Source: Pseudomonas fragi
GTDB taxonomy: Bacteria; Pseudomonadota; Gammaproteobacteria; Pseudomonadales; Pseudomonadaceae
Reading direction: 5' to 3'
Length of the DNA stretch: 64,000 nucleotides
NCBI RefSeq assembly: GCF_900105835.1
Contig: NZ_LT629783.1
Span: 2,046,001 to 2,110,000 of the forward strand
Part shown: in pieces, positions 1,382 to 33,359 of the stretch
Layout of the letters: each line of letters starts with the position of its first letter
Numbering within the stretch: the first letter of the stretch is position 1
The notes under the pieces: model-generated
What the model was told of the DNA's origin: nothing
The model's input: the letters and a program-made list of their open reading frames with translations, nothing else
Databases searched by the model: none
Program-made: the position numbers and the translations under genes

Positions 1382-2190
1382 TGCTCGCCTGCCCAATCTG
1401 CTCCGAACCGCTCAATGCAGTGGACAATGGTGTCGTGTGCCCCGCCGGGCACCGTTTTGACCGTGCCCGCCAGGGCTATTTGAACCTGTTGCCGGTGCAA
1501 CACAAGAACAGCCGCGACCCTGGCGACAACCAGGCAATGGTTGAAGCCCGCCGCGACTTTCTCAACGCCGGGCACTACGCCCCCGTGGCCAAACGCCTGG
1601 CCGAGCTGGCCGCCGAACGCGCGCCGCAACGCTGGCTCGACATCGGCTGTGGCGAGGGTTATTACACCGCGCAAATCGCCCAGGCACTGCCCGACGCCGA
1701 TGGTTACGCCCTGGATATCTCCCGCGAGGCGGTCAAGCGCGCCTGCAAGCGCAACCCGCAACTGACCTGGTTGATCGCCAGCATGGCCCGCGTACCCTTG
1801 GCCGATGCCAGCTGCCAGTTTTTGGCCAGTGTATTCAGCCCGCTGGACTGGCTTGAAGCCAAGCGCCTGCTGACCCCGGGTGGTGGCCTGATGCGTGTAG
1901 GCCCAACACGCGGGCACTTGATGGAACTGCGCGAGCGGCTGTACGACGAAGTACGGGATTACGCTGACGACAAGCATTTGGCCCTGGTGCCCGAAGGCAT
2001 GGCGCTGCAACACAGCGAAACACTGGAGTTCACCCTCAGCCTGAGCGAACCCCAGGATCGCGCCAACCTGCTGGCCATGACCCCTCACGGCTGGCGTGCC
2101 AGTGCCGAGCGCCGCGCCGAGGTCATCGAGCACCCCGAGCCTTTAGTGGTGACGGTGTCGATGCGCTACGATTACTTCGTGCTTCAATAA
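1381..2190 (+). CDS. rlmA: 23S rRNA (guanine745-N1)-methyltransferase
   Basis: The 269-residue protein has an N-terminal zinc-binding segment (CPICSEPL, then VCPAGHRFD) followed by LNLLP, and a Rossmann SAM-binding motif WLDIGCGEGYYT near residue 85. This arrangement is typical of RlmA (RrmA), which methylates G745 of 23S rRNA. Its ATG overlaps the dapE stop by one base. The same dapE-rlmA-small ORF-cold shock order occurs in P. aeruginosa, as far as I recall, which supports the call. The exact target base is inferred from the family. Confidence 0.93.
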   Translation: MLACPICSEPLNAVDNGVVCPAGHRFDRARQGYLNLLPVQHKNSRDPGDNQAMVEARRDFLNAGHYAPVAKRLAELAAERAPQRWLDIGCGEGYYTAQIAQALPDADGYALDISREAVKRACKRNPQLTWLIASMARVPLADASCQFLASVFSPLDWLEAKRLLTPGGGLMRVGPTRGHLMELRERLYDEVRDYADDKHLALVPEGMALQHSETLEFTLSLSEPQDRANLLAMTPHGWRASAERRAEVIEHPEPLVVTVSMRYDYFVLQ

Positions 2191-2270
2191 CCAACTTTAC
2201 GGCCAGGGGCACATGCCTCTGGCCCGATTAATCCGCGAGTGGATTTTTCAGACCCGCAGTGAGGACATCC

Positions 2271-2648
2271 ATGCGCCAACCCGATATCGAGATTTACCTG
2301 AAAGAAGCCGTCACTTACAAAGACGTCGAAGCCTGGCTGGCAAACGTGCTGGGGCCGTGCACGGAATGGAAAAAGAAAGGCGAAACCTGGAAGTGCACCG
2401 CAGGCGAAGTGCCGGTGACCTGGATGCCAAAGGCCGTGGGCAAATGGAACAGCCTGTACCTGGACAGTGATAAAACCCCGTGGGAAGACGATATTGCCTG
2501 CGCCAAGGCCGCTTTTGAGGCCCTGCACATCGAAGTGCGTTGCGCACCGGGCAGCTGGGTTGAAGAACAGGGCGAGGCAGACGCCGACCGCTGGATCCGC
2601 ATCAGCGAAGACGGCCAGGAAGAAATCACCTGGAAAACCGGTTCCTGA
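2271..2648 (+). CDS. Conserved small cytosolic protein of unknown function
   Basis: The 125-residue protein begins MRQPDIEIYLKEAVTYKDVE. The ATG at 2271 is preferred over a GTG at 2259 because GAGGA lies six bases upstream of it. The protein has no signal peptide or membrane segment, is rich in Trp and acidic residues, and has two cysteines (GPCTEW, KCTAG) plus CAKAAF and VRCAPG. It follows rlmA closely and likely belongs to the same unit. It appears to be a Pseudomonas conserved hypothetical in this synteny block. I recognise no functional domain. Confidence 0.8.
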   Translation: MRQPDIEIYLKEAVTYKDVEAWLANVLGPCTEWKKKGETWKCTAGEVPVTWMPKAVGKWNSLYLDSDKTPWEDDIACAKAAFEALHIEVRCAPGSWVEEQGEADADRWIRISEDGQEEITWKTGS

Positions 2649-2670
2649 GTAAAACCCGCTACAAATCCCT

Positions 2671-2757
2671 TGTGGGAGCGGGCTTGCTCGCGATGGTATC
2701 GCTGCGGTCAGCCAAATGCACCGCGCCGCCCATATCGCGAGCAAGCCCGCTCCCACA
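2671..2757. repeat. REP inverted pair (87 bp), copy 1
   Basis: The arm TGTGGGAGCGGGCTTGCTCG and its inverted copy CGAGCAAGCCCGCTCCCACA flank a variable core of about 40 bases. The element lies between the small hypothetical gene and the convergent cold-shock gene. The whole element is 87 bp, like the five other copies in this window. Confidence 0.95.
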
Positions 2758-2775
2758 GGGAGGGGCCGCAGAGCC

Positions 2776-2985
2776 TTACAACCCCACTACATCCTCGGCC
2801 TGCAGGCCCTTGGCGCCTGTGACCTGGGTGTATTCGACCTGCTGGCCTTCGGCCAGGCTGCGATGGCCTTCACCGCGAATGGCGCGGTAGTGCACAAACA
2901 CATCGGCCCCGTTCTCGCACTGGATAAAGCCGTAGCCCTTGGCATCGTTGAACCACTTCACATTGCCTGTTACACGTGTCGTCAT
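2776..2985 (-). CDS. CspA-family cold-shock domain protein
   Basis: A 69-residue single cold-shock domain with the nucleic-acid binding motifs RNP1 (KGYGFI) and RNP2 (DVFVHYRAI) and the conserved start GNVKWFNDAKGYGF. Such proteins bind single-stranded RNA or DNA and act as RNA chaperones. The gene is divergent from plsB, and the roughly 240 bases between them are AT-rich and would hold both promoters and a long 5' leader. The family has many paralogues, so I do not assign a csp letter. Whether it is cold-induced cannot be read from the sequence. Confidence 0.93.
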   Translation of the reverse strand: MTTRVTGNVKWFNDAKGYGFIQCENGADVFVHYRAIRGEGHRSLAEGQQVEYTQVTGAKGLQAEDVVGL

Positions 2986-3223
2986 GGAACCTTCCCCCCT
3001 TTTTATTATTGAGCGGGCTCGTTATTGGCCCTTTAAGAGTTTTCGCTTGAACTAGACTTCCACCGATTGCGTCTTACACAAGACAGCGAAAGACCTCGAG
3101 TATAAGTCAGGCAAAAAAACACTCAATCAATATTAGTTCGCCGCTTTTTTGCCGATTTTGCGCTGATACTGCAAACTACCCGACCGAGTAAACGCTCGTT
3201 TAATTCACTAACGCAGAAGCCGT

Positions 3224-5734
3224 ATGACCCCCTCCCCATTCCGCCGCCTTGTATTTGGCGCCCTGCGTCGCTTGCTGTACCTGTGGGTGCGCTCGGAGAC
3301 CATCAATCAGTCTTCGCTGACCCTGAACCTGGATCGCAGCCGCCCGGTGTTCTATGTACTGCAATCGCCCTCGCTGACCGAACTGGCCGTGGTCGACGCC
3401 GAATGCTCCAAGGCCGGCCTGCCGCGCCCGGTGCTGCCGGTTGCCGTGGGCGAGATGATCGAGCCCGCCGCCTTCTTCTACCTGACCCCCGAGCCCGACT
3501 GGCTGGGCCGCCAGGACAAGCGTGGGGCGCCGCCGGTATTGACCCGTCTGGTCGACAGCCTGAGCCAGCACCCGGGCGAAGATGCGCAAATCATTCCGGT
3601 CAGCGTGTTCTGGGGCCAGTCTCCCGACAGCGAGTCCAGCCCCTGGAAACTGCTGTTTGCCGATAGCTGGGCCGTGACCGGACGCTTGCGGCGTCTGCTG
3701 CGGATCCTGATTCTGGGCCGCAAAACCCGCGTGCAATTCTCGGCCCCTATCCATATGCGCGAGCTGGTCGACCTCAACAAGGGCCACGAACGCACCGTGC
3801 GCATGGCCCAGCGCATTTTGCGGGTGCACTTTCGCAACCTGAAAATTTCGACCATTGGCCCCGATCTGTCGCACCGACGCACACTGGTCAAAGGGCTGGT
3901 CAACGAGCCTGCCGTGCGTCAGGCGATCCTCGATGAAGCCGGGCGCGAAAATATTTCGCCAGACAAGGCCCGTGCCCTGGCGCTGCGCTACGCCAACGAA
4001 ATCGCCTCAGACTACACCTACACCGCGATCCGTTTTTTTGAAGTATTGCTGAGCTGGTTCTGGAACAAGATCTACGACGGGGTCAAGGTCAACCAGATCG
4101 AGAGCGTGCAAAAGGTCGCCCAGGGCCACGAGATCATTTATGTACCGTGCCACCGCAGCCATATCGACTACCTGTTGCTGTCCTATCTGCTGTTTCGCAA
4201 CGGCCTGACCCCGCCGCATATTGCCGCCGGGATCAACCTCAACATGCCGGTGCTGGGCCCGCTGCTGCGGCGTGGCGGGGCGTTTTTCATGCGCCGCACC
4301 TTCAAGGGCAACCCGTTGTACACCTCGGTGTTCAACGAATACATGCACACCCTGTTTACCAAGGGTTTCCCGGTGGAGTACTTCGTCGAAGGCGGCCGCT
4401 CGCGCACCGGACGCATGCTGCAACCAAAAACCGGGATGCTGGCCATCACCGTGCGCAGTTTCTTGCGCTCATCACGTACGCCTATCGTCTTTGTACCGGT
4501 GTACATCGGTTACGAGCGCGTACTAGAAGGCCGTACCTACCTTGGCGAACTGCGCGGTGCGAGCAAGAAAAAAGAATCGATTTTCGATATTTTCAAAGTG
4601 ATCGGCGCCCTTAAAAAGCAGAAGTTCGGTCAGGTCGCGGTCAACTTCGGCGAGCCGATCAAGCTTGCCGAGTTTCTCGAGCAGGAGCAGCCGGGCTGGC
4701 GCCAGCAGGAGCTTGCGCCGGCCTACCGGCCTGAATGGCTGAGCCAGACCACCAACCGTCTGGGGGAAAAAGTTGCCCGGCACCTGAATGAGGCTGCGGC
4801 CATCAATCCGGTCAACCTGGTGGCCCTGGCCCTGCTGTCCACTACCCGCCTGGCCCTGGATGAACAGGCTATGGCCCGGGTGCTGGACCTGTATCTGGCC
4901 CTGCTGCGCCGGGTTCCCTACTCGCCGTACACCACCTTGCCCGAGGGTGACGGGCCGGCACTGATCCAGCATGTCAAAGACATGAATCTGCTGGCCGAGC
5001 AAAGCGATGCGCTGGGCAAGATCCTCTATCTGGATGAGCAGAACGCGGTTCTGATGACCTATTACCGCAACAACGTGATGCATATCTTTGCCTTGCCATC
5101 GTTGCTGGCCAGCTTCTTCCAGAGCACCTCGCGCATGAGCCGCGAACAGATCCTGCGCTACACCCATGCGCTGTACCCGTATCTGCAATCGGAACTGTTT
5201 ATCCGCTGGTCCGCAGAGGAACTCGACGGTGTAGTCGACCAATGGCTTGAAGCCTTTGTCGAGCAAGGCTTGCTGCGCTTCGAAAAAGACGTGTACCTGC
5301 GCCCTGCGCCCAGTTCGCGACACTTTGTATTGCTGACGCTGCTGTCCAAAAGCATTGCGCAAACCCTGCAACGCTTTTACATGGCCATCTCCTTGCTGCT
5401 CAATAGCGGCCAGAACACCTTGAGCGCCGAAGAGCTGGAAGACCTGTGCACCATGATGGCCCAGCGCCTGTCGATCCTGCATGGGCTCAATGCCCCTGAG
5501 TTCTTCGACAAGAGCCTGTTCCGCCACTTTATCCAGACCTTGCTCGAAGAAGACGTATTGCGCCGCGATGCCAACGGCAAATTGAGCTACCACGAACTGC
5601 TCGGTGAACTGGCCGAAGGGGCTGCCAAGCGCGTCTTGCCTGCCGAAATCCGCCTGTCTATCCGCCAGGTGGCCTTGCACCGCACTGAAGACACCCCTGA
5701 GCAGCCGCCACTTTCGCTGGAAAAAACATCTTGA
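3224..5734 (+). CDS. plsB: Glycerol-3-phosphate 1-O-acyltransferase
   Basis: PlsB is the inner-membrane acyltransferase that puts the first acyl chain on sn-glycerol-3-phosphate, starting phospholipid synthesis. The 836-residue length fits the long proteobacterial PlsB. The catalytic HX4D motif is seen as HRSHID with His310 and Asp315. Further acyltransferase motifs are [19 protein letters not shown], and [15 protein letters not shown]. The start [16 protein letters not shown] has the usual basic amphipathic N-terminus. A lipoprotein gene follows 12 bases later and is likely co-transcribed. Confidence 0.97.
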
Positions 5735-5746
5735 ATGGAGACTTAC

Positions 5747-6145
5747 ATGAAAAAAATCCTTTTACTCAGCCTCACAGCCCTGCTTGGAGCCTGTAGTTCC
5801 ATGACCCCTACCCAGCATGCCAGCCTCGATGGCGAAGTGTTTTACCTGCAACGCATTGCCTTGCCGCCGACGGCGACACTGGAAGTGAGCCTGCAGGACG
5901 TTTCGCTGGCCGACGCACCAGCGGTAACGCTTGCCAAGCAAAGCGGCCAGATCAAGGGCCAGGTGCCACTGCCTTTCCACCTGACCTACGACCCGGCGCA
6001 GATCAAGCCCGGCCACACCTACGCTATCAGCGCGCGGATTGAAGAAAACGGCCAGTTGCTGTTTATCAACACCGAGCGCAATAGCGTCGACCTGACGGCC
6101 AAGACCCAGCAGCCGATCCGTGTGCGCGTGGATCAGATTCGCTAA
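5747..6145 (+). CDS. YbaY-like outer-membrane lipoprotein
   Basis: The 132-residue protein starts MKKILLLSLTALLGACSS, a signal peptide with lipobox LGAC. Start ATG 5747 is chosen because GGAG lies six bases before it; an ATG at 5735 overlaps that site. The mature part resembles YbaY/YscW-type beta-sandwich lipoproteins, with LPPTATLEVSLQDVSLADAP and the IKPGHTYAISARI segment. It follows plsB by 12 bases and is probably in its operon. Function is unknown; envelope localisation is predicted from the lipobox. Confidence 0.88.
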   Translation: MKKILLLSLTALLGACSSMTPTQHASLDGEVFYLQRIALPPTATLEVSLQDVSLADAPAVTLAKQSGQIKGQVPLPFHLTYDPAQIKPGHTYAISARIEENGQLLFINTERNSVDLTAKTQQPIRVRVDQIR

Positions 6146-6157
6146 TTCGCAGGCTTA

Positions 6158-6299
6158 CCCTCACCCCAACCCTCTCCCGGAGGGAGAGGGGGCTGATTGG
6201 GGAATAACGGAGAATCTCGGCAGCCGAAAGTATTGAGCTGAATCCCGCAGCAACGCGGTCAAGTCCCCTCTCCCTCCGGGAGAGGGTTAGGGTGAGGGG
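6158..6299. repeat. Inverted repeat of a separate REP-like family (142 bp)
   Basis: The left arm contains CCTCACCCCAACCCTCTCCC and GGAGGGAGAGGGG. The right arm is its inverted counterpart, with CCCCTCTCCCTCCGGGAGAG and GGTTAGGGTGAGGGG. It lies between two convergent genes and may fold into a bidirectional stem at the ends of both transcripts. It is unrelated in sequence to the GTGGGAGCGGGC copies. Confidence 0.88.
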
Positions 6300-6307
6300 C
6301 TTTTGAA

Positions 6308-9300
6308 CTAGACCTTCCTGACCTTGAACCACGCCGCATACAGCGCCGGCAAGAACAGCAGCGTCAGCACAGTTGCCACGATCAGCCCGCCCATAATGGC
6401 CACCGCCATCGGCCCGAAGAACACGCTGCGTGACAGCGGAATCATCGCCAGCACCGCCGCCAGCGCGGTCAGCACAATCGGCCGAAAACGCCGCACTGTC
6501 GCTTCAATCACCGCCCGCCACGGGTCCAGCCCCGCCGCCTTGTCCTGCTCGATCTGATCCACCAGGATCACCGAGTTGCGCATGATCATCCCCGACAATG
6601 CGATGGTGCCCAGCATTGCCACAAAACCAAACGGCTTGCCAAACAACAGCAGGAACAATGTCACCCCGATCAGACCCAAAGGCGCCGTCAGGAATACCAT
6701 GACCATGCGCGAGAAACTGCGCAGCTGCACCATCAGCAATGTCAGCACCACCACGATAAACAGCGGCACACCGGCTTTCACCGAGTCCTGGCCACGGGTG
6801 GAGTCTTCGACGGTGCCGCCCACTTCCAGCAAATAGCCATCCGGCAGTTCGGCACGCACGCCCTCCAGGGTCGGCAGGATCTGCTGCACCAGGGTCGCCG
6901 GTTGCTCCTTGCCGTAGATATCCGCCCGCACGGTCACGGTCGGCAGGCGATTGCGGTGCCAGATAATGCCTTCTTCAAAGCCATATTCCAGGGTCGCGAT
7001 CTGCGACAGGGCAACGCTCTGGCCATTGTCGGTGGGCACCGCCAGACTCGGCAGCAGAGCAAGTTCAGTGCGTTCCTGCGGTGTGCCGCGTAGGAGAATT
7101 TCGATCAACTCGTTGTCTTCGCGGTACTGGCTGACCGTCGAGCCCAGCAGGGTGCTTTGCAAGAAGCGCGACAGGTTGGCCGTGCTGACTCCCAGGGCAC
7201 GCGCGCGGTCCTGATCGATATTGAGGTTGACCACCTTGCTCGGCTCTTCCCAGTCCAGGTGCACGTTGACCACATGGGGGTTGCCCCGCACTTGGGCCGC
7301 AACCTTGCGCGCCAGCGCCCGTACCTCTTCGATATGCTCGCCGGTCACCCGGAACTGCACCGGATAGCCCACAGGCGGGCCGTTTTCCAGGCGCGTCACC
7401 CGCGAACGGATGGTCGGGAACTGCTCATTAAGGGTGTCGATCAACCAGGTGCGCAGGCTTTCCCGGTCTTCGATGGTTTTGGCCAATACCACGAACTGGG
7501 CAAAGCTTGCCGCTGGCAGTTGCTGGTCCAGAGGCAGGTAATAGCGTGGCGAACCGGTGCCCGCGTAAGCCACATAGTTCTCGATGCCCGGGTGATCCTT
7601 GAGCAGTGCTTCGAGCTGCTTGACCTGATCGGTGGTGTTGCTCAACGAAGCGCCTTCGGCCAGCTTCATGTCGACCATCAGCTCCAGCCGGCTGGACGCC
7701 GGGAAGAACTGCTGCGGTACAAACTTGAACAGCACCACCGAGCCCACAAACACCAGCGCGGTCAGGGCAATCACGGTTTTGCGCCGGGTGACGCACCACT
7801 CCACCAACCGCCGTACGCGCTGGTAAAACGGCGTCGCGTAGGGGTCAGGCACGCCAGCCCCGGTGCCGTGTTTGGCCGCATGAATCTTCGCCAGGTCCGG
7901 CAACAACAGCGCGCCCAGATAGGGCACAAACACCACTGCAGCCACCCATGACGCCAGCAGGGCAATGGTTACCACCTGGAAAATCGAGCGGGTGTATTCG
8001 CCGGTGCTCGACTGCGCCATCGCAATTGGCAAAAAGCCCGCAGCTGTAATCAACGTACCGGTAAGCATCGGGAACGCCGTGCTGGTCCAGGCAAAACTTG
8101 CGGCCTTGAGCCTGTCGTAGCCCTGCTCCATTTTGATCGCCATCATTTCCACAGCGATGATCGCGTCATCGACCAGCAGGCCCAGCGCCAGTACCAGCGC
8201 CCCCAGCGAGATCTTGTGCAGGCCGATGCCGAAGTAATGCATGGCGGCAAAGGTCATGGCCAGCACCAGCGGAATGGTCAGCGCCACCACCATGCCGGTA
8301 CGCACGCCCAATGAGAAAAAACTCACCAGCAGAACGATGACCAGCGCTTCGACCAGCACCTGCACGAACTCGCCAACGCTGGTTTTCACCGCCGCGGGTT
8401 GATCAGACACCTTGCCCAGTTGCATACCCGCCGGCAGGTTTTTCTGGATGCGTTCAAACTCGGCATCCAGTGCCTTGCCCAGCACCAGAATATCGCCGCC
8501 GTCCTTCATTGCCACGGCCAGACCAATTGCGTCCTGACCCATAAAGCGCATGCGCGGCGCCGGCGGATCATTGAATCCGCGACGCACATCAGCCACATCG
8601 CTGATGCGTAAAGTGCGCTCGCCGACGCGAATGGGGAAACGCTCGATCTCTTCGACCGTTTTGAAATTACCGCTCACGCGCAGTTGCACGCGCTCGGTGG
8701 GCGTTTCAAAAAAACCTGCCGTCGATACCGCGTTCTGCTCTTCAAGGGCTTTTTGCACGGCCGCCAGCGGCAAACCAAGGGTCGCCAGCTTGAGGTTGGA
8801 CAGCTCGATCCAGATTTTTTCGTCCTGTAGGCCCAGCAACTCGACCTTGCCCACATCCTTGACCCGCTGCAGCTGGATCTGGATACGGTCGGCGTAGTCC
8901 TTGAGCACTGCGTAGTCGTAACCTTCCCCGCTCAGGCTGTAGATATTGCCGAAAGTGGTGCCGAATTCATCGTTGTAAAACGGCCCCTGAGCATCCGGCG
9001 GCAACGTGTGACGTATATCACTGATCTTTTTGCGAACCTGATACCACAGCTCGGGTATCTGATCGGAATGCATCGAATCGCGGGCCATAAAGGTCACTTG
9101 CGATTCGCCGGGGCGCGAGAACGAGACAATGCGCTCGTACTCGCCGGTTTCCATCAGTTTCTTCTCGATTCGTTCGGTGACCTGACGCGAGACTTCTTCA
9201 GCCGTGGCGCCCGGCCACAGGGTACGGATCACCATCGCCTTGAAGGTAAACGGCGGATCTTCGCTCTGCCCCAGTTTTGTGTAGGAAAGCCCGCCGACAA

Positions 9301-9373
9301 TTGCCAGCAACAGCATCAGGAACAGGACGATCTGGCGATTGCGCAACGCCCATGCGGAAAGGTTGAAACCCAT
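6308..9373 (-). CDS. mexK: RND efflux pump inner-membrane permease (MexK-like)
   Basis: A 1021-residue resistance-nodulation-division transporter that would use the proton gradient to export drugs through a tripartite complex. It has an N-terminal helix after MGFNLSAWALRNRQ, two large periplasmic loops, and two blocks of transmembrane helices. The proton-relay region GLLVDDAIIAVEMM in helix 4 has the expected paired aspartates. The adaptor gene starts the operon five bases upstream. The position next to plsB, the adaptor-permease order without an outer-membrane channel gene, and the divergent TetR gene match mexJK-mexL of P. aeruginosa. The symbol is by synteny and family and could be a close relative. 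Confidence 0.88.
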   Translation of the reverse strand: MGFNLSAWALRNRQIVLFLMLLLAIVGGLSYTKLGQSEDPPFTFKAMVIRTLWPGATAEEVSRQVTERIEKKLMETGEYERIVSFSRPGESQVTFMARDSMHSDQIPELWYQVRKKISDIRHTLPPDAQGPFYNDEFGTTFGNIYSLSGEGYDYAVLKDYADRIQIQLQRVKDVGKVELLGLQDEKIWIELSNLKLATLGLPLAAVQKALEEQNAVSTAGFFETPTERVQLRVSGNFKTVEEIERFPIRVGERTLRISDVADVRRGFNDPPAPRMRFMGQDAIGLAVAMKDGGDILVLGKALDAEFERIQKNLPAGMQLGKVSDQPAAVKTSVGEFVQVLVEALVIVLLVSFFSLGVRTGMVVALTIPLVLAMTFAAMHYFGIGLHKISLGALVLALGLLVDDAIIAVEMMAIKMEQGYDRLKAASFAWTSTAFPMLTGTLITAAGFLPIAMAQSSTGEYTRSIFQVVTIALLASWVAAVVFVPYLGALLLPDLAKIHAAKHGTGAGVPDPYATPFYQRVRRLVEWCVTRRKTVIALTALVFVGSVVLFKFVPQQFFPASSRLELMVDMKLAEGASLSNTTDQVKQLEALLKDHPGIENYVAYAGTGSPRYYLPLDQQLPAASFAQFVVLAKTIEDRESLRTWLIDTLNEQFPTIRSRVTRLENGPPVGYPVQFRVTGEHIEEVRALARKVAAQVRGNPHVVNVHLDWEEPSKVVNLNIDQDRARALGVSTANLSRFLQSTLLGSTVSQYREDNELIEILLRGTPQERTELALLPSLAVPTDNGQSVALSQIATLEYGFEEGIIWHRNRLPTVTVRADIYGKEQPATLVQQILPTLEGVRAELPDGYLLEVGGTVEDSTRGQDSVKAGVPLFIVVVLTLLMVQLRSFSRMVMVFLTAPLGLIGVTLFLLLFGKPFGFVAMLGTIALSGMIMRNSVILVDQIEQDKAAGLDPWRAVIEATVRRFRPIVLTALAAVLAMIPLSRSVFFGPMAVAIMGGLIVATVLTLLFLPALYAAWFKVRKV

Positions 9374-9378
9374 GGGGA

Positions 9379-10479
9379 TTACTCCTTCGCCGCAACATTG
9401 ATCGCCCGGTTGGAGCGATCAATCGGCCGCACCTCCTGGCCTGGATGCAACACATGCACACCAGCGGCGACGATCCAGTCATCGGCCTTGAGACCTTCAA
9501 GCACCGGCACACTGTTTTCGCCAAACGGCCCTACCCGCACGGGTACTTGTTCAAGCTTGTTATCCTGGCCCACGCGCCACACATAAGCCGCACCGTTTTC
9601 GGCGGTCAGTGCAGACAGCGGCACGGACAGAGAGCTGGCGCCTTCGCTCTGGATGAACACACGGGCACTTTGGCCAAGCTCTGCAGGTACTTTGCCTGCA
9701 GTGAAAGCGATACGGGCAGCAAAGGTGCGCGATTTAGGATCGGCTGAAGGCGACAGTTCGCGGATGCGACCGCTGAAGCGCTGGCCGGGTTGCGACCACA
9801 ACTCGACGGCCACCGGCAGACCGATCTTGAAGCGGCCAAAATCCTGTTCCGGCAAGCTGATCAGCACTTCGCGCTCGCCATCGGCAGCCAGGGTGAACAC
9901 CGTTTGCCCGGCACTGACCACTTGCCCCACCTCGACCTGACGCTGAGCAATCACGCCATCTTGTGGAGCACGCAATACCGCATAGCTCGCCTGATTGCTG
10001 GCCACGTCCTGCTCGGCCTTGAGCTGTTGCAGCTTGGCTTCGCCTGAGCGATAAAGGTTTTCGGCATTATCAAACTGCGAGCGGCTGACCATCTGCCGGT
10101 CCAGCAGGGTCTTGTAGCGGTCGCGCTCGGCACGCACCAGGTTCAGGTTGGCCTGCCCGGCGGCGACCTGGGCGCGGGTTGCGTCCAATTGCAGGCGCAC
10201 ATCTTGCGGGTCCAGTTCGGCCAGCGGCTGGTTGGCCTTGACCCGCTCGCCCTCATCCACCAGACGCCGGGTTACCTTGCCGCCAATGCGAAACGCCAGT
10301 TGCGGGTCAAACCGCGCCCGCACTTCGCCCGGGTAGCTCTGGCTGGCCAGTGCCGAAGGCTGCGGTTGCACCACCATCGCCGGGCTGATGCTGATTTTTG
10401 CGGGCTCCTGCTGCCCACACCCAGACAATAAAAACAGCAGACACACAGGCACAGCGCGGGGCAAGGCATGGCGCAACAT
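9379..10479 (-). CDS. mexJ: RND efflux periplasmic adaptor lipoprotein (MexJ-like)
   Basis: The 366-residue membrane fusion protein has a lipoprotein signal ending in LLSGC near residue 21, a lipoyl/barrel-sandwich half (GGKVTRRLVDEGERVKANQP), a coiled-coil hairpin at about residues 95-165, and the return half motif VLRAPQDGVIAQRQVEVGQV. It links the permease to an outer-membrane channel, which must be encoded elsewhere (OprM or TolC-like). It is the first gene of the adaptor-permease operon and is divergent from the TetR gene, whose product probably represses it. Confidence 0.9.
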   Translation of the reverse strand: MLRHALPRAVPVCLLFLLSGCGQQEPAKISISPAMVVQPQPSALASQSYPGEVRARFDPQLAFRIGGKVTRRLVDEGERVKANQPLAELDPQDVRLQLDATRAQVAAGQANLNLVRAERDRYKTLLDRQMVSRSQFDNAENLYRSGEAKLQQLKAEQDVASNQASYAVLRAPQDGVIAQRQVEVGQVVSAGQTVFTLAADGEREVLISLPEQDFGRFKIGLPVAVELWSQPGQRFSGRIRELSPSADPKSRTFAARIAFTAGKVPAELGQSARVFIQSEGASSLSVPLSALTAENGAAYVWRVGQDNKLEQVPVRVGPFGENSVPVLEGLKADDWIVAAGVHVLHPGQEVRPIDRSNRAINVAAKE

Positions 10480-27447: not shown

Positions 27448-28968
27448 ATGGCAGCCACCATGTCCAACTTAGCCAGCGGTCATGTATTCGGTATTGCGAC
27501 GCCCCACTTCAAGTCATCCATGATGGGCATGCAAGACTATCTGTTAACAGGCGCAGGGCCGAGCGCCGCCATAAGCGCGGCACTCTCATTGACCTATAAC
27601 CTCCCGCACCTGTGCGGCCTGGGAGGGGATGCCATCATCATGCAGGCAAGCCCCGGCAACCTGGAGGTATTCAACGGCACGGGCGTAACAGGCACGCACC
27701 AGCACCACGACAACTATTTATATAAAGGCCTTGAATCAATCCCGCGACGAGGCATTTACAGCACCATGGTGTATGGCTGCCCCAGTGCCTATGAGCGGTA
27801 TACACAGTTGCACGACATTGATTTGAACAGGGTATTTAAACATCTGCACGAACATGATTTAAAACATGGACTGATAACAACTGAAAGTTTATTGCAGGCA
27901 TTCTACAGCAGCACCAAAGAACCCCAGATACACACCCGTTTTACTCAATGGACGCATTGTTTCACTCAACGAAAAGACCCTGAACCCTTCTATCGCCACA
28001 CCCTGGCAACTTTGGCACGGGAGGGCTTTTCGTCGATGTACCAGGGGTTGCTGGCCGAGCAGGTGTTCGACCTGTTGTCCAGATGCGACCCGCACCTTTA
28101 TACGGCTGGTGACTTTGCCGATTTTGTGCCCAATCCCTCGCAGGTCAGAAGCACGCGCTTCATGCACGCCACGGTGACGGCACATGGCAGCAACAGCCCG
28201 TGGAAAGAGCTGTTCCTGCTGCTGAAAATCTATCAATTGAGTGCCCAGGACACCACCTTGCTGACGCCCGCTCAGCTTTGTACCGCCGCCGGACTGATCG
28301 ACACCTGGCTGGCCTCACAGCCTGCTTCAGATACAGGCAATGAGCGCACCCTCGACCAACAGGCAGCACTGATCCATCAGCAGCTCAAACAGGACAACCC
28401 TGAACCTGTGCCCCAATCGTGCAAAACCTCGCACACCATCTTTATGGCGTGCGCCGCGGCTGACGGCACCCTGACCGGCATCACCAACTCGATCTTCACC
28501 CCCCTGGGCTCACTATTCGAAATCGATAACAGCGGCATTATCCTGAGCAACCGGGCCTTCTCATTCAATGGCCCCCATGCGTGCTCGACCTTCAAGGGCA
28601 GGACCGCCGCCAGCCACACCACCAACTGCGTCCATGTCAGCACCGACCACCTGGAGTTTATCCTGGGCACATCGGGGGGGCCGGTGCAGTCGCAAACCCT
28701 GGCGTTCATCATCTACAAGATTGTCGCGCAGAACTGCCCGATCCAGACCGCCCTCGCCAGCCCGCGCTGTGCCAATCTGGGCCGTCACCCCAAGACCGGC
28801 GGCATCACTTATTTAAGTGAGGCGCCACAGGCAGACCCGGTCTTTACCTGGACCAACGGCCTGTCCGACAAACTGGGGGTGGTGCAACTGGCCGGCATCA
28901 ACACCCTCAACGGCCAGGTGTTCGCTGCAGCCGACCCCCGCGGTAGTGGCGTGGCTCTGGCGGTATGA
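27448..28968 (+). CDS. Gamma-glutamyltranspeptidase-fold protein, divergent, cytosolic
   Basis: The 506-residue protein (ATG 27448; starts at 27409 TTG or 27460 are possible, none has a clear ribosome site) resembles gamma-glutamyltransferases, N-terminal nucleophile hydrolases that self-cleave at a threonine. The candidate nucleophile is Thr327 in CKTSHTIFMACAAADG, and the later GG loop is LGTSGGPVQSQTLAF. There is no signal peptide, whereas classical Pseudomonas GGTs are periplasmic and longer. The arginine of the usual NGREKAP segment is absent (here VFNGTGVTG), and the usual DDF motif reads LSNRAFSFN, so glutamate binding may be lost. It is first in the cluster, with its stop overlapping the exporter start. 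It may act as an acyl- or aminoacyl-transferase, cyclase or hydrolase. Confidence 0.75.
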   Translation: MAATMSNLASGHVFGIATPHFKSSMMGMQDYLLTGAGPSAAISAALSLTYNLPHLCGLGGDAIIMQASPGNLEVFNGTGVTGTHQHHDNYLYKGLESIPRRGIYSTMVYGCPSAYERYTQLHDIDLNRVFKHLHEHDLKHGLITTESLLQAFYSSTKEPQIHTRFTQWTHCFTQRKDPEPFYRHTLATLAREGFSSMYQGLLAEQVFDLLSRCDPHLYTAGDFADFVPNPSQVRSTRFMHATVTAHGSNSPWKELFLLLKIYQLSAQDTTLLTPAQLCTAAGLIDTWLASQPASDTGNERTLDQQAALIHQQLKQDNPEPVPQSCKTSHTIFMACAAADGTLTGITNSIFTPLGSLFEIDNSGIILSNRAFSFNGPHACSTFKGRTAASHTTNCVHVSTDHLEFILGTSGGPVQSQTLAFIIYKIVAQNCPIQTALASPRCANLGRHPKTGGITYLSEAPQADPVFTWTNGLSDKLGVVQLAGINTLNGQVFAAADPRGSGVALAV

Positions 28969-30464
28969 ACATTCACGGCAGCGGCTCGCACCATGCCGCC
29001 CTCCTGACCGTCGCCAGCGCTTTTTTTCTGGAGGTGCTGGATGCGACCATCATGATCGTAGCCATTATCCCCCTGGCCAACGATCTGGGCGCGAGTATCA
29101 GTGGCGTCACCCTGGCATTGGCCGCTTACCTGCTGGCCCTGGTGGTGTTCACCCCTGCGAGCGGGCATCTGTTCAAAACGCTCGGGCTTGCGCAACGCTT
29201 CCAGTGCGGCCTGCTGATTCTTTGCCTGGCATCACTGGCCTGCGCCAGTAGCCAAAACCTTTACATGCTGTGCATTGCCCGTCTGGCCCAAGGCTTTGGC
29301 AGTGCGCTGATCGTGCCCGCCGGACGCACCCTGATCCTGGCCAATACCGACAAAAACCAAATCCCCAGGATCATGGCCTGGCTGATTGCCCCTGCGCTGG
29401 TCGCCCCGATTGTGGCCCCGTCCATCGCCAACGTACTGCTGAGCCTGGGCAACTGGCGGCTGATCTTTGGTTTTATCGCATTCTGCGCGGCAGGGCTGAT
29501 TGCCATATGCCGGGCGACGCTGTTCGCACTGCCTGCCCCCGCAGCCCGCCAGCATCCCTTGGACGTTTATGCCTACGGGTTGTGGGCGCTGTCTTCGTCG
29601 GCGTTGTTCACGATGTTCGTTGCCGGCTCGAACAGTCGCCCCCTCTATACCCTGTTGGCCGCCATCGTGATGCTGTATGCCGGCGTGCGGTTGTACCAAC
29701 GACTATGCCAGGCCACTGATAAACAACTGTTCGACCTGTCGTTGCTCAACAACCCGTTGTTCAAGTTCAACATCGTTTCAGGCAGCTTTTTCCGTATCAG
29801 CATTTATGCCTTTCCAACCGTGCTGATCATCCACCTGCTGAAAACATCGGATTACCCGCCCAGTTCAATTGGCCACTGCCTGTTGTTTATCTTTGCCGGC
29901 AATCTTCTTGCAAAACCCGTGGCGGCCAGGATATTGGCGAACAGCCACTCGATAAAACGCTACATCTTGTACTCGGCGCTGGCAACGTCCATCACATTGA
30001 GCGTGTTCTTTTATCCGCGCCTGTCTGACCCACTTCCTGTGCTGTGGCTGGCCTGCGCCCTGCACGGCTGCGCGCGCTCTTTTCAATTTCTCGGCTACTC
30101 CTCCAGCAGCCTGCGCGATATCCAACCGTCGCGCATGCATCACGCCAACATTCTTCTCGGCGCGGTCATGCAACACAACGCACTGATCGCACAGGCGGTG
30201 CCCGCCCTGCTGGCAGCGTTCCTGATCCCCTCCCGCCTGCCCGGCGAATCCAGCGACGGGTTCTTCAACCTGGGCATGGCCACCGTAACCGCCCTGTCAT
30301 TGATGGCCGTGCTGAGCGCGCTGCGCATGCCCAATTCGAGCAAACAAGGATCCCCCCCGAGCACTGCAAGCCCCACAAACGTAAAAGCTGGAAATCACAC
30401 GCACTCAAGCGTTGTTACGCAAGGAGCTGAAGATGAAAGCCGTGAAGCTGAAAACCACCGTTGA
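28965..30464 (+). CDS. MFS exporter, DHA2 (EmrB/QacA-like) type
   Basis: The 499-residue membrane protein has the DHA2 signature LEVLDATIMIVAIIPLANDL in helix 1 and many hydrophobic segments, consistent with 12-14 helices. The FKTLGLAQRF loop is at the motif A position, between helices 2 and 3, and LAQGFGSALIVPAGRTLIL follows. Its ATG overlaps the upstream stop (ATGA). The 3' end overlaps the next gene by 32 bases, and the last 50 residues look like an unstructured hydrophilic tail. It probably exports the cluster's product and may confer self-resistance. Confidence 0.85.
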   Translation: MNIHGSGSHHAALLTVASAFFLEVLDATIMIVAIIPLANDLGASISGVTLALAAYLLALVVFTPASGHLFKTLGLAQRFQCGLLILCLASLACASSQNLYMLCIARLAQGFGSALIVPAGRTLILANTDKNQIPRIMAWLIAPALVAPIVAPSIANVLLSLGNWRLIFGFIAFCAAGLIAICRATLFALPAPAARQHPLDVYAYGLWALSSSALFTMFVAGSNSRPLYTLLAAIVMLYAGVRLYQRLCQATDKQLFDLSLLNNPLFKFNIVSGSFFRISIYAFPTVLIIHLLKTSDYPPSSIGHCLLFIFAGNLLAKPVAARILANSHSIKRYILYSALATSITLSVFFYPRLSDPLPVLWLACALHGCARSFQFLGYSSSSLRDIQPSRMHHANILLGAVMQHNALIAQAVPALLAAFLIPSRLPGESSDGFFNLGMATVTALSLMAVLSALRMPNSSKQGSPPSTASPTNVKAGNHTHSSVVTQGAEDESREAENHR

Positions 30465-31035
30465 AATCCCCATAGAGGGCATCCCCCTGCACACTCGATT
30501 TGTGTCATTTGAAGGTGTAGACAAAGAACACTTCGCGTTGCTGATTGGCGACTGCCACACCCTGCCCGTGCTGACCCGTATTCATTCCGAATGCCTGACC
30601 GGCGATGTATTCGGGTCCAGACGCTGTGATTGCGGCGCCCAGTTGAAAGAAGCGCTGTCCCACATGTCCGAACGCGGTGGTGGTGTATTGATTTATCTGC
30701 GCCAGGAAGGTCGCGGTATTGGCCTGTACTCCAAGTTCGATGCCTATGTGTTGCAAACCCAGGGCATTGATACCTTCACCGCCAATGAGATGCTCGGCTA
30801 TACCGATGATTCAAGAGAGTTTGAAAGCGCGGGCGCCATGCTCAAGGCCCTGGACATTCGCCATATAGACCTTATTACCAATAACCCGGCAAAAGTCCTG
30901 GCGCTGCAAGGTTGCAATATCACCATCAACAGAACCCTGCCATCCGGTGTGTTTTTAACCGTCGAAAACGAGCGCTACCTGCGCAGCAAAATCAATAAAA
31001 AACAGCACACGATCAACTTGAATAAAAACAGGTGA
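30433..31035 (+). CDS. GTP cyclohydrolase II, stand-alone paralogue
   Basis: The 200-residue protein is a complete RibA-type enzyme. It opens the GTP imidazole ring to give 2,5-diamino-6-ribosylamino-4(3H)-pyrimidinone 5'-phosphate, with loss of formate and pyrophosphate. The zinc ligands are Cys54, Cys65 and Cys67, numbered as in E. coli RibA (HSECLTGD, then RRCDCGAQL). RQEGRGIGL and ITNNP are also present. ATG 30433 has AAGGAG six bases upstream and lies inside the exporter's 3' end. Housekeeping riboflavin genes are normally elsewhere in Pseudomonas, so this is probably a dedicated copy. Toxoflavin clusters use the same enzyme type (ToxB). Confidence 0.9.
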   Translation: MKAVKLKTTVEIPIEGIPLHTRFVSFEGVDKEHFALLIGDCHTLPVLTRIHSECLTGDVFGSRRCDCGAQLKEALSHMSERGGGVLIYLRQEGRGIGLYSKFDAYVLQTQGIDTFTANEMLGYTDDSREFESAGAMLKALDIRHIDLITNNPAKVLALQGCNITINRTLPSGVFLTVENERYLRSKINKKQHTINLNKNR

Positions 31036-31040
31036 TTGCC

Positions 31041-31937
31041 ATGAACGCTTATATCCTGAACTTTTGCCCCACCGGCATGGTGCCCACCAAGCACATGAAC
31101 CCGCATACGCCGGTGAGCACGTCGGAAATCATTGAAGATGTATTGATGGCCTCCGAACTGGGGGCCTCCATCGCCCACTTGCACGCCCGGGATCAAAAAA
31201 CCGGCGAACCCACAGGCGACCTCAATACCTTCGCCGCAATCATCGAAGGCATCCGCAAATACAACAAGCAACTGATCTTGTGCGTTTCGCTCAGCGGTCG
31301 CAATGTTTCCGATCCAGCACTCAGGGCCCTGCCCCTTTCGCTGGATGGCGAGGCCAAACCCGACATGGGTTCATTGACGTTATCGTCCATGAACTTTTCC
31401 ACTCAAGCGAGCATCAATGCCCCGGGCACGATCAACTACCTCGCCGGGCAAATGGCGCTCAAGGGCATCTCACCCGAAGTTGAGATATTCGACAGCGGCA
31501 TGTCGAGCTGCCTGAACAGCCTGATCAAAAAATCGTTAATGCCGCCCACTGTCTACGCCAATATTTTGCTGGGTAATTTGTTTGGTGCCCAACCAAGTTT
31601 CGCCCATATCGCCGCCATTACCAGTTCGTTGCCTGGCAATGTCGTGAGTTCCTTTGCCGGGCTGGGCAGTTATCAACTGCGCAGCAACGCCCTGGCCCTG
31701 GCCGCAGGTCACGGCATCCGCGTCGGCCTTGAGGACAATATCTGGTTCGACCACGAACGCACCACCCTGGCGAGCAACCGCAGTTTGCTGGAGCGCATCA
31801 CGTCCATTGCCAACCTTCAGCAATTGACCCCGGCCACCCCGACGCAGGTCCGGGAGCGCCTGGGCTTGCAGCCCGGGCAAGGTCGCTATGGCCTGGTCCC
31901 TGTTGCTGACCAATACAGGGAAGCCGCCCATGGATAA
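31041..31937 (+). CDS. Beta-keto acid cleavage enzyme family (BKACE, DUF849)
   Basis: The 298-residue protein belongs to the Kce/BKACE zinc enzymes, which condense a beta-keto acid with acetyl-CoA and cleave it to acetoacetate plus a new acyl-CoA. Zinc ligands are visible as His46 and His48 (IAHLHARD) and Glu231 (RVGLEDN). Other family segments are PEVEIFDSGM and AAGHGIRVGLEDNIWF. It starts five bases after the GTP cyclohydrolase stop; a GTG at 31032 in frame is less likely. The family accepts many side chains, so the substrate here is unknown. Such an enzyme is not part of ordinary riboflavin synthesis. Confidence 0.88.
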   Translation: MNAYILNFCPTGMVPTKHMNPHTPVSTSEIIEDVLMASELGASIAHLHARDQKTGEPTGDLNTFAAIIEGIRKYNKQLILCVSLSGRNVSDPALRALPLSLDGEAKPDMGSLTLSSMNFSTQASINAPGTINYLAGQMALKGISPEVEIFDSGMSSCLNSLIKKSLMPPTVYANILLGNLFGAQPSFAHIAAITSSLPGNVVSSFAGLGSYQLRSNALALAAGHGIRVGLEDNIWFDHERTTLASNRSLLERITSIANLQQLTPATPTQVRERLGLQPGQGRYGLVPVADQYREAAHG

Positions 31938-32718
31938 TGTCTGGTTTACGCCCGAGGGCTATCAACGCACGTCGCGGAACCTGCAAAGACGCTGTTTGCA
32001 GCTGCTGCTGTCCTTCGCCCCGCCCCGGGGCACCCTGCTGGATGTCGGCTGTGGAACCGGCAATACATTGCTGTTTGCGGACAAGGAACACATTGAACAG
32101 TATGTGGGCATTGATATTTCCCAGGACATGATTGCGTATGCCAACCGAGCCCACGCAGCCCCCCATGTCAGGTTTATGGTCAGTGACTTTCTCGATTACC
32201 CCCTTGAGCAATTACCGCTGTTTGATGCCGCCATTTGTGCCGCCTGTTTGCACTGGTTTATCCCCCACGAACAAACCGTTATCGACAAGTTGGCCGACGC
32301 CATAAAGCCGGGCGGTTATCTGTATTTGTCCTGCGCCTTTGACTTCGATTATGTCTTGGGCGAGCGCGCGATCCAGGAACAGGTGCTGATGGATATCCGC
32401 CGGCAATACCCCTGTATTGCCGACCCGGTGGTATTCGATGACTTTCGTTTCAACAGAAGCTCCCTGATCGACGCACTGCACGACTTTGAAATCATTCGCT
32501 CGCACCGTATCGAAGAACCTGTGCAGTTTGAGAACTTCGAAGACTTCAGAGATTGGCACCTGGGCAGCGGCTCGGTGATTTACGCTCAGTTCGATGAACG
32601 ATTCCGCGAACGGGCAATTACCGATTACTACCAGAAACTGTATGAACACTATTGTGCCGGCACTTATAAAACCGCGTATTCCACTGGCCTTATGCTGCTT
32701 GAAAGGAGGAAAGCCTGA
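31930..32718 (+). CDS. Class I SAM-dependent methyltransferase
   Basis: The 262-residue protein starts at ATG 31930 (MDNVWFTPEGYQRTSRNLQR), overlapping the DUF849 stop by eight bases; a longer frame from 31888 is unlikely. The SAM pocket is seen as LLDVGCGTGNTLLFADKEHI, then YVGIDISQDM and SDFLDYPLE, with KPGGYLYLSCAFD as motif III. This is the small-molecule methyltransferase type found in natural product clusters. It ends with a strong AGGAGG and a TGATG overlap into the riboflavin synthase gene. The acceptor atom is unknown. Confidence 0.87.
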   Translation: MDNVWFTPEGYQRTSRNLQRRCLQLLLSFAPPRGTLLDVGCGTGNTLLFADKEHIEQYVGIDISQDMIAYANRAHAAPHVRFMVSDFLDYPLEQLPLFDAAICAACLHWFIPHEQTVIDKLADAIKPGGYLYLSCAFDFDYVLGERAIQEQVLMDIRRQYPCIADPVVFDDFRFNRSSLIDALHDFEIIRSHRIEEPVQFENFEDFRDWHLGSGSVIYAQFDERFRERAITDYYQKLYEHYCAGTYKTAYSTGLMLLERRKA

Positions 32719-33359
32719 TGTATACCGGCATTGTGCAAGGCACTGCCCGCGTTCTCTCCCTGCACAAGGAGACAGGGCACCAGAGGGTGGTACTGGTCCA
32801 GAGTTCGCCCCTGTTCGATAACATTGATATTGGCGCCAGCGTGTCGGTCAACGGCACATGCCTGACAGTGACCGCTTACTCGTCTGACAGCGCCACCTTC
32901 GATATCTCCAATCGGACAGCGGAAATCACCACGCTTGAGCACCTGCGGGTGAATGACCGGGTCAATATCGAACGCTCCCACCGAGCAGGTGAAGAAAACG
33001 GCGGGCACGCGCTCTACGGCCACATTGAAAGCACCGCGCAGGTGGTGTCGTGGCAGCCACTGGGCGAAACCGTGAGCGCCGTTTTGCGGCTGGAACCGGC
33101 GACCTCGGCTTATGTGTTCGAGAAAGGGTTTATCGGCCTGCATGGCTGTAGCCTGACTGTTGACCGCCTGGATGAAGAGCGGCACACGGTCACGGTCAAC
33201 CTGATCCCGCAAACCCTGGCCCTGACGAACTTGAGCGGCTTGCAGGTGGGTGACCGGGTCAATGTTGAAATAGACCAGACTACGCGAACGTTGGTGGATA
33301 CCCTGCAACGAACGCTGGCTCGCCAGCGCGGCCGGCCAAGGGCTATTCGTAGCAGCTGA
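32718..33359 (+). CDS. Riboflavin synthase alpha-type (lumazine-binding) paralogue
   Basis: The 213-residue protein has the two lumazine-binding barrels of riboflavin synthase, which dismutates two 6,7-dimethyl-8-ribityllumazines. The residues important in E. coli are present: Cys48 (VNGTCLTVT), His102 (YGHIES), Ser145 and Thr147 (GCSLTVD), and Asp186 (VNVEID). Deviations are MYTGIV for the usual MFTGIV, YGH for SGH, and LIPQTL for LIPHTL. It may be an active second copy, a resistance copy, or a binding protein. Its end lies within a repeat, and the last few residues (RGRPRAIRSS) may have been altered by that element. Confidence 0.85.
   Translation: MYTGIVQGTARVLSLHKETGHQRVVLVQSSPLFDNIDIGASVSVNGTCLTVTAYSSDSATFDISNRTAEITTLEHLRVNDRVNIERSHRAGEENGGHALYGHIESTAQVVSWQPLGETVSAVLRLEPATSAYVFEKGFIGLHGCSLTVDRLDEERHTVTVNLIPQTLALTNLSGLQVGDRVNVEIDQTTRTLVDTLQRTLARQRGRPRAIRSS

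Follow-up and report, generated by a model that had tools for sequence, protein, structure and literature searches.

A riboflavin-linked gene cluster of Pseudomonas fragi and a possible self-resistance role for its riboflavin synthase paralogue

A six-gene unit in the genome of P. fragi

Positions 27448-33359 of a 64,000-nt window of the Pseudomonas fragi contig NZ_LT629783.1 carry six genes, all of them plus-strand; the window is the whole stretch of DNA analysed here, all coordinates are positions within it, and the genome that carries it is a single contig of 5.07 Mb. The genes encode a protein with the gamma-glutamyltransferase (GGT) fold, an MFS transporter, a GTP cyclohydrolase II (GCHII), an enzyme of the BKACE/DUF849 family, a methyltransferase (MT) dependent on S-adenosylmethionine (SAM), and a riboflavin synthase paralogue (RibE) (Table 1). 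An ATG start and a stop codon were confirmed at the coordinates of each of the six genes. The open reading frames (ORFs) confirm the order, strand and tight packing described in a first-pass annotation of the window, and Pfam and NCBIfam uphold all six of its family assignments. The GGT-fold and MFS genes overlap in an ATGA at 28965-28968, MFS and GCHII overlap by 32 bases, BKACE and MT by 8 bases, and MT and RibE have one base in common (TGATG, at 32718); the widest gap within the unit is the 5 bases between GCHII and BKACE. By our own reading of the sequence, the cluster is flanked by prfB and lysS at one end and by wspR, wspF and wspE at the opposite end. Sites resembling promoters and terminators did not exceed the frequency seen in shuffled sequence.

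Table 1. Genes of the cluster, with positions in the 64,000-nt window
Feature	Position	Strand	Basis
GGT-fold (Ntn-hydrolase) protein, 506 aa	27448..28968	+	PF01019, E 3e-28; presumed nucleophile Thr330
MFS exporter, 499 aa	28965..30464	+	PF07690 (MFS_1), E 6e-28
GCHII paralogue, 200 aa	30433..31035	+	Pfam GCHII, E 2e-51; PRK00393
BKACE/DUF849 enzyme, 298 aa	31041..31937	+	PF05853, E 5e-67
SAM-dependent MT, 262 aa	31930..32718	+	Methyltransf_25, E 4e-18
RibE paralogue with Tyr2, Asn94, Tyr100 and His142	32718..33359	+	Lum_binding, E 1e-39

The same gene set in other genomes

As the first-pass annotation had suggested, the same gene set was sought in other genomes, and it was found in Pseudomonas and on a Salmonella plasmid, in varied order and at varied sites. 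Full sets of the gene types besides that of the window occur in P. fragi F1801 (L004), Pseudomonas G291 (L090), P. fluorescens PS910 (L006) and the Salmonella plasmid pRSE21 (L003). Among the matches listed, P. fragi F1801 is the closest named relative of the locus, with an MT 95% identical and the same neighbours, and G291 carries all six genes at a different chromosomal site with different neighbours. The order on pRSE21 is GGT-deaminase-GCHII-BKACE-MT-RibE-MFS, with the MFS gene split in two, and in PS910 it is RibE-GCHII-MT-GGT-MFS-ObcA type-deaminase. Because the same genes co-occur in other orders elsewhere, the grouping of the six is not due to chance. Two further loci are incomplete or decayed: in Brenneria, a partial BKACE, MT and RibE stand at a contig end, and in Providencia all six genes have matches in the order of the window, every one of which is disrupted: GGT and BKACE are each split over two frames, MFS, GCHII and MT have in-frame stops, and RibE has a frameshift.

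The locus scan comprises the 80 loci with listed matches, and among these four (L004-L007) match at a minimum of 43% identity over most of the query. The set is rare in the genomes searched. An MT at E <=1e-30 was found in 3 of 298 Pseudomonas genomes, including the window's own and that of G106, and the MT profile matched 1 of 57 relatives (the window genome itself) and 1 of 394 Enterobacterales (Providencia). A search of E. coli genomes with 2.8 kb of the Salmonella cluster DNA gave no match, and a DNA search of plasmids returned 32 records; most of the 20 listed are matches to GCHII and one is to riboflavin synthase.

The riboflavin synthase paralogue

The cluster RibE passes the cut-offs of three NCBIfam riboflavin synthase models and shares 28.6% identity over 192 residues with the housekeeping RibE of the window genome. 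In a FastTree tree, midpoint-rooted and grouped by topology alone, 12 cluster-type RibE (PS910 aside) form, together with 16 added homologues, one group apart from the 17 copies classed as housekeeping; the added proteins were hand-picked from the homologue list and come mainly from Xenorhabdus, Photorhabdus, Providencia, Lonsdalea and Acinetobacter. The PS910 RibE falls outside this group as a separate lineage, and it has Tyr2 too. Four RibE, P0153, P0162 and P0173 from Acinetobacter and P0174, group with the cluster-type copies, and P0162 and P0174 carry Asn142.

Thirteen alignment columns separate the 12 cluster-type from the 17 housekeeping RibE, a separating column being one with the same residue in at least 11 of the 12 and in at most 1 of the 17. 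They include Tyr2 in place of Phe, Asn94, Tyr100 in place of Ser (one Phe), and His142 in place of Asp/Asn. Among the best 120 of 1479 RibE homologues, to which all the following counts refer, all 120 have Tyr100, and 117 have Tyr2 (3 gaps); at position 142, His occurs in 83, Asn in 35 and Gln in 2. Ser41 is kept in 118 (2 gaps), His102 in all 120, and Cys48, Thr50 and His97 in all readable rows. Published work calls Phe2 critical, and Ser41 and His102 important, for riboflavin synthase activity (PMC10012899). We considered His142 as a sign of a dead enzyme and dropped it, as the position is variable and holds Asn in 6 of the 17 housekeeping RibE.

Lone copies of the cluster-type RibE

RibE of the cluster type was detected at E <=1e-54 in 6 of 392 Enterobacteriaceae genomes, namely Providencia and five others in which it stands alone. 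Judged by the named proteins next to which their RibE fall in the tree, four of these five genomes resemble Photorhabdus and one, G1056, resembles Xenorhabdus. The 17 kb around each lone copy (6 kb in G1056) gave no match to any other gene of the cluster at E 1e-4. Across the five whole genomes, four had no match to the MT profile at E 1e-10, and that of G1056 had two partial matches of 43-44 bits, far under the level of the family. Each of the five genomes has a second RibE of the housekeeping type, which scores higher against Lum_binding. All five lone RibE adjoin purE and purK. Four of them have as their opposite neighbour the gene found next to the decayed Providencia cluster, the contig of the fifth ending too early; in Providencia, RibE is separated from purK by two extra genes. 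Ratios of nonsynonymous to synonymous substitution (dN/dS) of 0.077-0.125 in ten pairs show purifying selection on the lone copies. A sixth lone RibE is carried by the Salmonella plasmid CP054717 (L088); the 18 kb read there hold none of the other cluster genes, and the only two Salmonella records with an MT match are both plasmids other than CP054717.

The simplest history of these loci would be that the pathway was lost and its last gene kept, as expected of an immunity gene. RibE standing alone and intact where the rest is gone points to a role in self-resistance.

Seven Enterobacterales RibE matches at 43-45% identity were classed as housekeeping, excluded from the lone count and placed within the 17 copies above; by our own reading, six of them lie beside a MATE-like gene, and the seventh, L145, has a DGxSLT motif and is found at a different site. 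On CP054717 (L088, 3557-9219), a gene of the iron-containing redox enzyme family and a DMT transporter are annotated about 3-5 kb off on the opposite strand. On the Acinetobacter plasmid pJNE5-64k (L138, 6342-7103), a truncated cluster-type RibE lies just behind a frame that we read as transposase-like.

Enzymes of the cluster

Our GCHII queries started at 30436, one codon past the ATG at 30433. The GCHII is over the cut-off for PRK00393 and under that for TIGR00505, and in an alignment to 2bz0 it keeps the Cys motif and the Tyr, Asp and Arg that we take to be the active-site residues of this enzyme. Two more GCHII-type genes are present elsewhere in the window genome.

The first-pass annotation had noted the absence of RibD, lumazine synthase and RibB, which is correct for the window and does not extend to the cluster type, as the clusters of pRSE21 and PS910 include a stand-alone RibD-type deaminase. 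At 144 and 147 aa, these two proteins are too short to include a reductase domain. The deaminase query found one match each in the genomes of the window, G291, P. fragi F1801 and Providencia, in frames of 378-393 aa that fit a bifunctional housekeeping RibD, and two matches in that of PS910. Presumably the housekeeping RibD serves the window cluster as deaminase. Given the RibD-type deaminases in the clusters of these relatives, the core of the product would most simply be 5,6-diaminouracil ribosylamine.

In alignment, the window BKACE keeps the zinc motifs HxH and GLED and has a Phe at the position of the catalytic Tyr145 of Kce, as do its counterparts in P. fragi F1801, G291 and pRSE21. The flavophos enzyme BsfD, for which an acetylated product is reported instead of the usual cleavage, likewise has Phe at this position (PMC12871164). 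The Phe alone is no proof of BsfD-like chemistry, because the structural-genomics BKACE members 3chv, 3fa5 and 3no5 carry it too. In PS910, the place of BKACE is taken by a homologue of ObcA/Obc1 with an ObcA_N domain (L006, 13801-15258; E 3e-106 to Obc1 and 8e-102 to ObcA). Obc1 converts oxaloacetate and acetyl-CoA to oxalate, acetoacetate and CoA (PMC5028181), and from the presence of its homologue in this slot we infer that the cluster needs a short unit derived from a beta-keto acid, our best guess for its source being oxaloacetate. The extension unit that the first-pass annotation had BKACE handle is recast here by way of the PS910 variant.

The GGT-fold protein reaches 58.6 bits with an NCBIfam GGT model whose cut-off is 357.85. 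Its family comprises 24 close relatives down to E 3.6e-75, the next match being at 1.6e-14, with scoring limited to the 7996 candidates with the most words in common. Thr330, the nucleophile position assigned by alignment to 2i3o and 2nlz, and Gly410-Gly411 are kept in 24 of 24 (the near-identical entry of the window included). In the cephalosporin acylase 2nlz an Arg occupies the position that we take to be that of the Arg binding the glutamyl alpha-carboxylate in gamma-glutamyltransferases; the aligned residue is Val80 in the window, and among the 24 it is Lys in 20, Val in 2, Arg in 1 and Ile in 1. These features suggest an amide-forming or amide-cleaving enzyme and not a glutathione enzyme. 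For the MFS protein, the best NCBIfam model is MdtD (DHA2-like), at 121 bits under a cut-off of 426.

The MT belongs to a small family of 37 proteins down to E 1.6e-48, followed by the next match at 2e-8, whose names include Pseudomonas helleri, Xenorhabdus szentirmaii, Photorhabdus africana, Brenneria, Lonsdalea quercina, Agrobacterium vitis and a Salmonella plasmid. Most rows of an alignment of 29 of the 37 (A1) begin at the equivalent of 31930 and not of 31888, so that 31930 is the likely start of the gene. A lone MT in Pseudomonas G106 (L091, G106:C57:77000-95000, 8981-9775) is intact, and LHWF and GSGS, conserved in most of the family, are changed in it. A protein similar to this lone MT, P0011, is found on 293 contigs.

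Relation to known systems

No description of the gene set was found in the titles and abstract openings of the open-licence PMC literature, a source that leaves subscription literature largely uncovered, and within the same literature no published cluster matched gene by gene, in agreement with the undescribed look that the first-pass annotation had given the cluster.

The closest parallel in logic is flavophos (bsf, Burkholderia), an inhibitor of lumazine synthase in whose pathway a DUF849/BKACE enzyme makes the acyl product and a copy of lumazine synthase within the cluster, a duplicated late riboflavin gene, confers immunity (PMC12871164). A BKACE and a duplicated late riboflavin-pathway gene are both present in the window cluster, and the likeness extends to the Phe shared with BsfD. 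On the other hand, flavophos is made by a phosphonate pathway, whereas no PepM or 2-phosphonomethylmalate synthase is found among the six proteins of the window; the duplicated gene is lumazine synthase in one case and riboflavin synthase in the other; and the window has a GCHII, whereas neither GCHII nor a deaminase is met in the portion of the published flavophos account consulted (PMC12871164).

The oxalate biosynthesis enzymes ObcA/Obc1 (PMC5028181) are related to the PS910 cluster enzyme, which shares their ObcA_N domain, whereas the BKACE of the window lacks ObcA_N and is set in a biosynthetic cluster. The antimetabolite logic within the flavin pathway is shared with roseoflavin. The roseoflavin (ros) pathway uses the flavodoxin-like RosB, and its first step acts on flavin mononucleotide (FMN); no flavodoxin-like RosB is found among the six window proteins, and the first step here would act on GTP and not on FMN.

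Proposed product and alternative explanations

Homology supports the presence of GCHII, a deaminase (in two relatives), BKACE/ObcA, MT, an exporter and a riboflavin synthase-type protein. We propose, with a probability of roughly 45%, that the six genes form an operon for the biosynthesis and export of a small molecule and for immunity to it, the product being an inhibitor of riboflavin synthase and RibE a less sensitive duplicate of the target. By homology, GCHII would open GTP to give 2,5-diamino-6-ribosylaminopyrimidinone phosphate, which a RibD-type deaminase, encoded in the cluster in two relatives and presumably by housekeeping RibD here, would convert to the 5,6-diaminouracil core. BKACE/ObcA may draw on acetyl-CoA and a beta-keto acid, which in the PS910 variant would be oxaloacetate, to provide an oxalyl or acetoacetyl group as a short acyl unit; the GGT-fold enzyme may make or trim the acyl amide, MT may methylate an intermediate, and the MFS protein would export the product. 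The latter could be a 5-acylamino-6-ribosylaminouracil or a lumazine analogue that inhibits riboflavin synthase, to which the cluster RibE would be the less sensitive duplicate. Listed inhibitors of riboflavin and lumazine synthases include oxalamic acid derivatives of 6-ribitylaminouracil and alkyl-phosphate 6,7-dioxolumazines (PMC10366380), and an oxalyl unit on the diaminouracil core would give a compound of that class, although we consider the oxalyl detail by itself unlikely. More tentative than the general proposal is its fullest form, in which a widespread natural antibiotic against riboflavin synthase would be derived from GTP as a methylated diaminouracil or dioxolumazine that also bears an acyl group, possibly oxalyl, an insensitive RibE would confer self-resistance, and the Photorhabdus- and Xenorhabdus-like genomes, having lost the pathway, would keep that gene alone.

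Riboflavin biosynthesis is described as a pathway that bacteria need to survive and that humans lack, and analogues of its substrates, intermediates and products have been tabulated as inhibitors (PMC10366380, Table 1). If the proposal is true, the product may block vitamin B2 synthesis in competing bacteria, and a cluster found in nature that carries an altered riboflavin synthase of its own would combine, in one operon, access to a natural inhibitor with a test of resistance. It would be the second compound against vitamin B2 synthesis after flavophos, chemically unrelated to it, and would represent a new use of BKACE/ObcA enzymes.

Several observations weigh against this proposal. The whole-genome search of the five genomes with lone RibE was for MT only, GGT and BKACE not being sought genome-wide. 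Housekeeping RibE in the same genomes have dN/dS values of 0.036-0.080, mostly lower than those of the lone copies, and in four pairs with G1056 dS is >1.3, near saturation. The Providencia RibE is itself frameshifted, and at the prfB/wspR site of Pseudomonas G106 it is MT alone that survives, the 18 kb examined around it holding none of the other cluster genes and the genome having no cluster-type RibE. The use of oxaloacetate is drawn from the PS910 enzyme, which is not a close relative of the window BKACE, and no ObcB was recognised beside the PS910 ObcA/Obc1 gene, where no search with an ObcB model was made. Finally, the change of Phe2 to Tyr could mean that RibE has taken on a new role in biosynthesis and is not a resistant riboflavin synthase. 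In such a biosynthetic role, the main alternative to our proposal, the altered enzyme would move or condense carbon units on a modified lumazine to yield a changed flavin or lumazine, a possibility consistent with the presence of RibE in all four other full sets examined, with its association with GCHII and, in two sets, the deaminase, with its divergence from housekeeping RibE at Phe2 and at the Asp/Asn of the (D/N)GxSLT motif, and with Tyr2 in the separate PS910 lineage. However, for the lone, intact and selected copies, found in five genomes and on one plasmid, no pathway is apparent in which they could act, the cluster has no lumazine synthase, and Ser41, Cys48, Thr50, His97 and His102 are kept in the readable rows of the RibE alignment. 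The riboflavin-linked cluster with an exporter that the first-pass annotation had proposed stands; if that annotation also counts RibE among the enzymes that build the product, we regard this part of it as possible and, given the lone intact copies, probably wrong.

Lone copies need not mean immunity, because a plain backup riboflavin synthase would be retained too, and second ribE genes with a plainly redundant function are known: one is functional in Aeromonas salmonicida, and the same is said for Shewanella oneidensis and Pseudomonas putida (PMC10012899). Yet a module in which the additional GCHII and RibE give a higher flavin flux or a reserve for the pathway, the other genes being incidental, is the least probable of the explanations considered, since the hallmarks of a riboflavin operon (RibB, RibH and the RibD reductase domain) are absent among the six proteins and MT, GGT-fold, BKACE/ObcA-type and MFS genes always accompany GCHII and RibE across distant hosts. 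Hardly more credible is a toxoflavin/pseudoiodinine-type cluster (azapteridine or pyrazolotriazine) with swapped partners. The likeness lies in the common logic of GCHII, a RibD-type deaminase (in two relatives here) and a SAM-dependent methyltransferase acting on a GTP-derived pyrimidine, as with PsdD (GCHII) and PsdG (RibD) of the pseudoiodinine (psd) pathway (PMC9911603). The window, by contrast, has no SUMF1-type, WD40 or VOC protein and has GGT-fold, BKACE and RibE instead; membership was rejected because the SUMF1-type and WD40 partner genes, which psd has, are missing from 27448-33359, which leaves the likeness to toxoflavin, GCHII and MT, as partial as the first-pass annotation had judged it.

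Two clusters of the psd/toxoflavin kind were observed elsewhere. By our own ORF reading, Pseudomonas G106 has one (L137, G106:C79:1-14000, 2145-7504) with MT, SUMF1-type, GCHII, WD40 and RibD genes, and the Agrobacterium plasmid pAt1D1460 (L089, 3635-11174) carries a pseudoiodinine-like set of SUMF1, GCHII, WD40, VOC and MFS genes beside genes for acyl-homoserine-lactone signalling.

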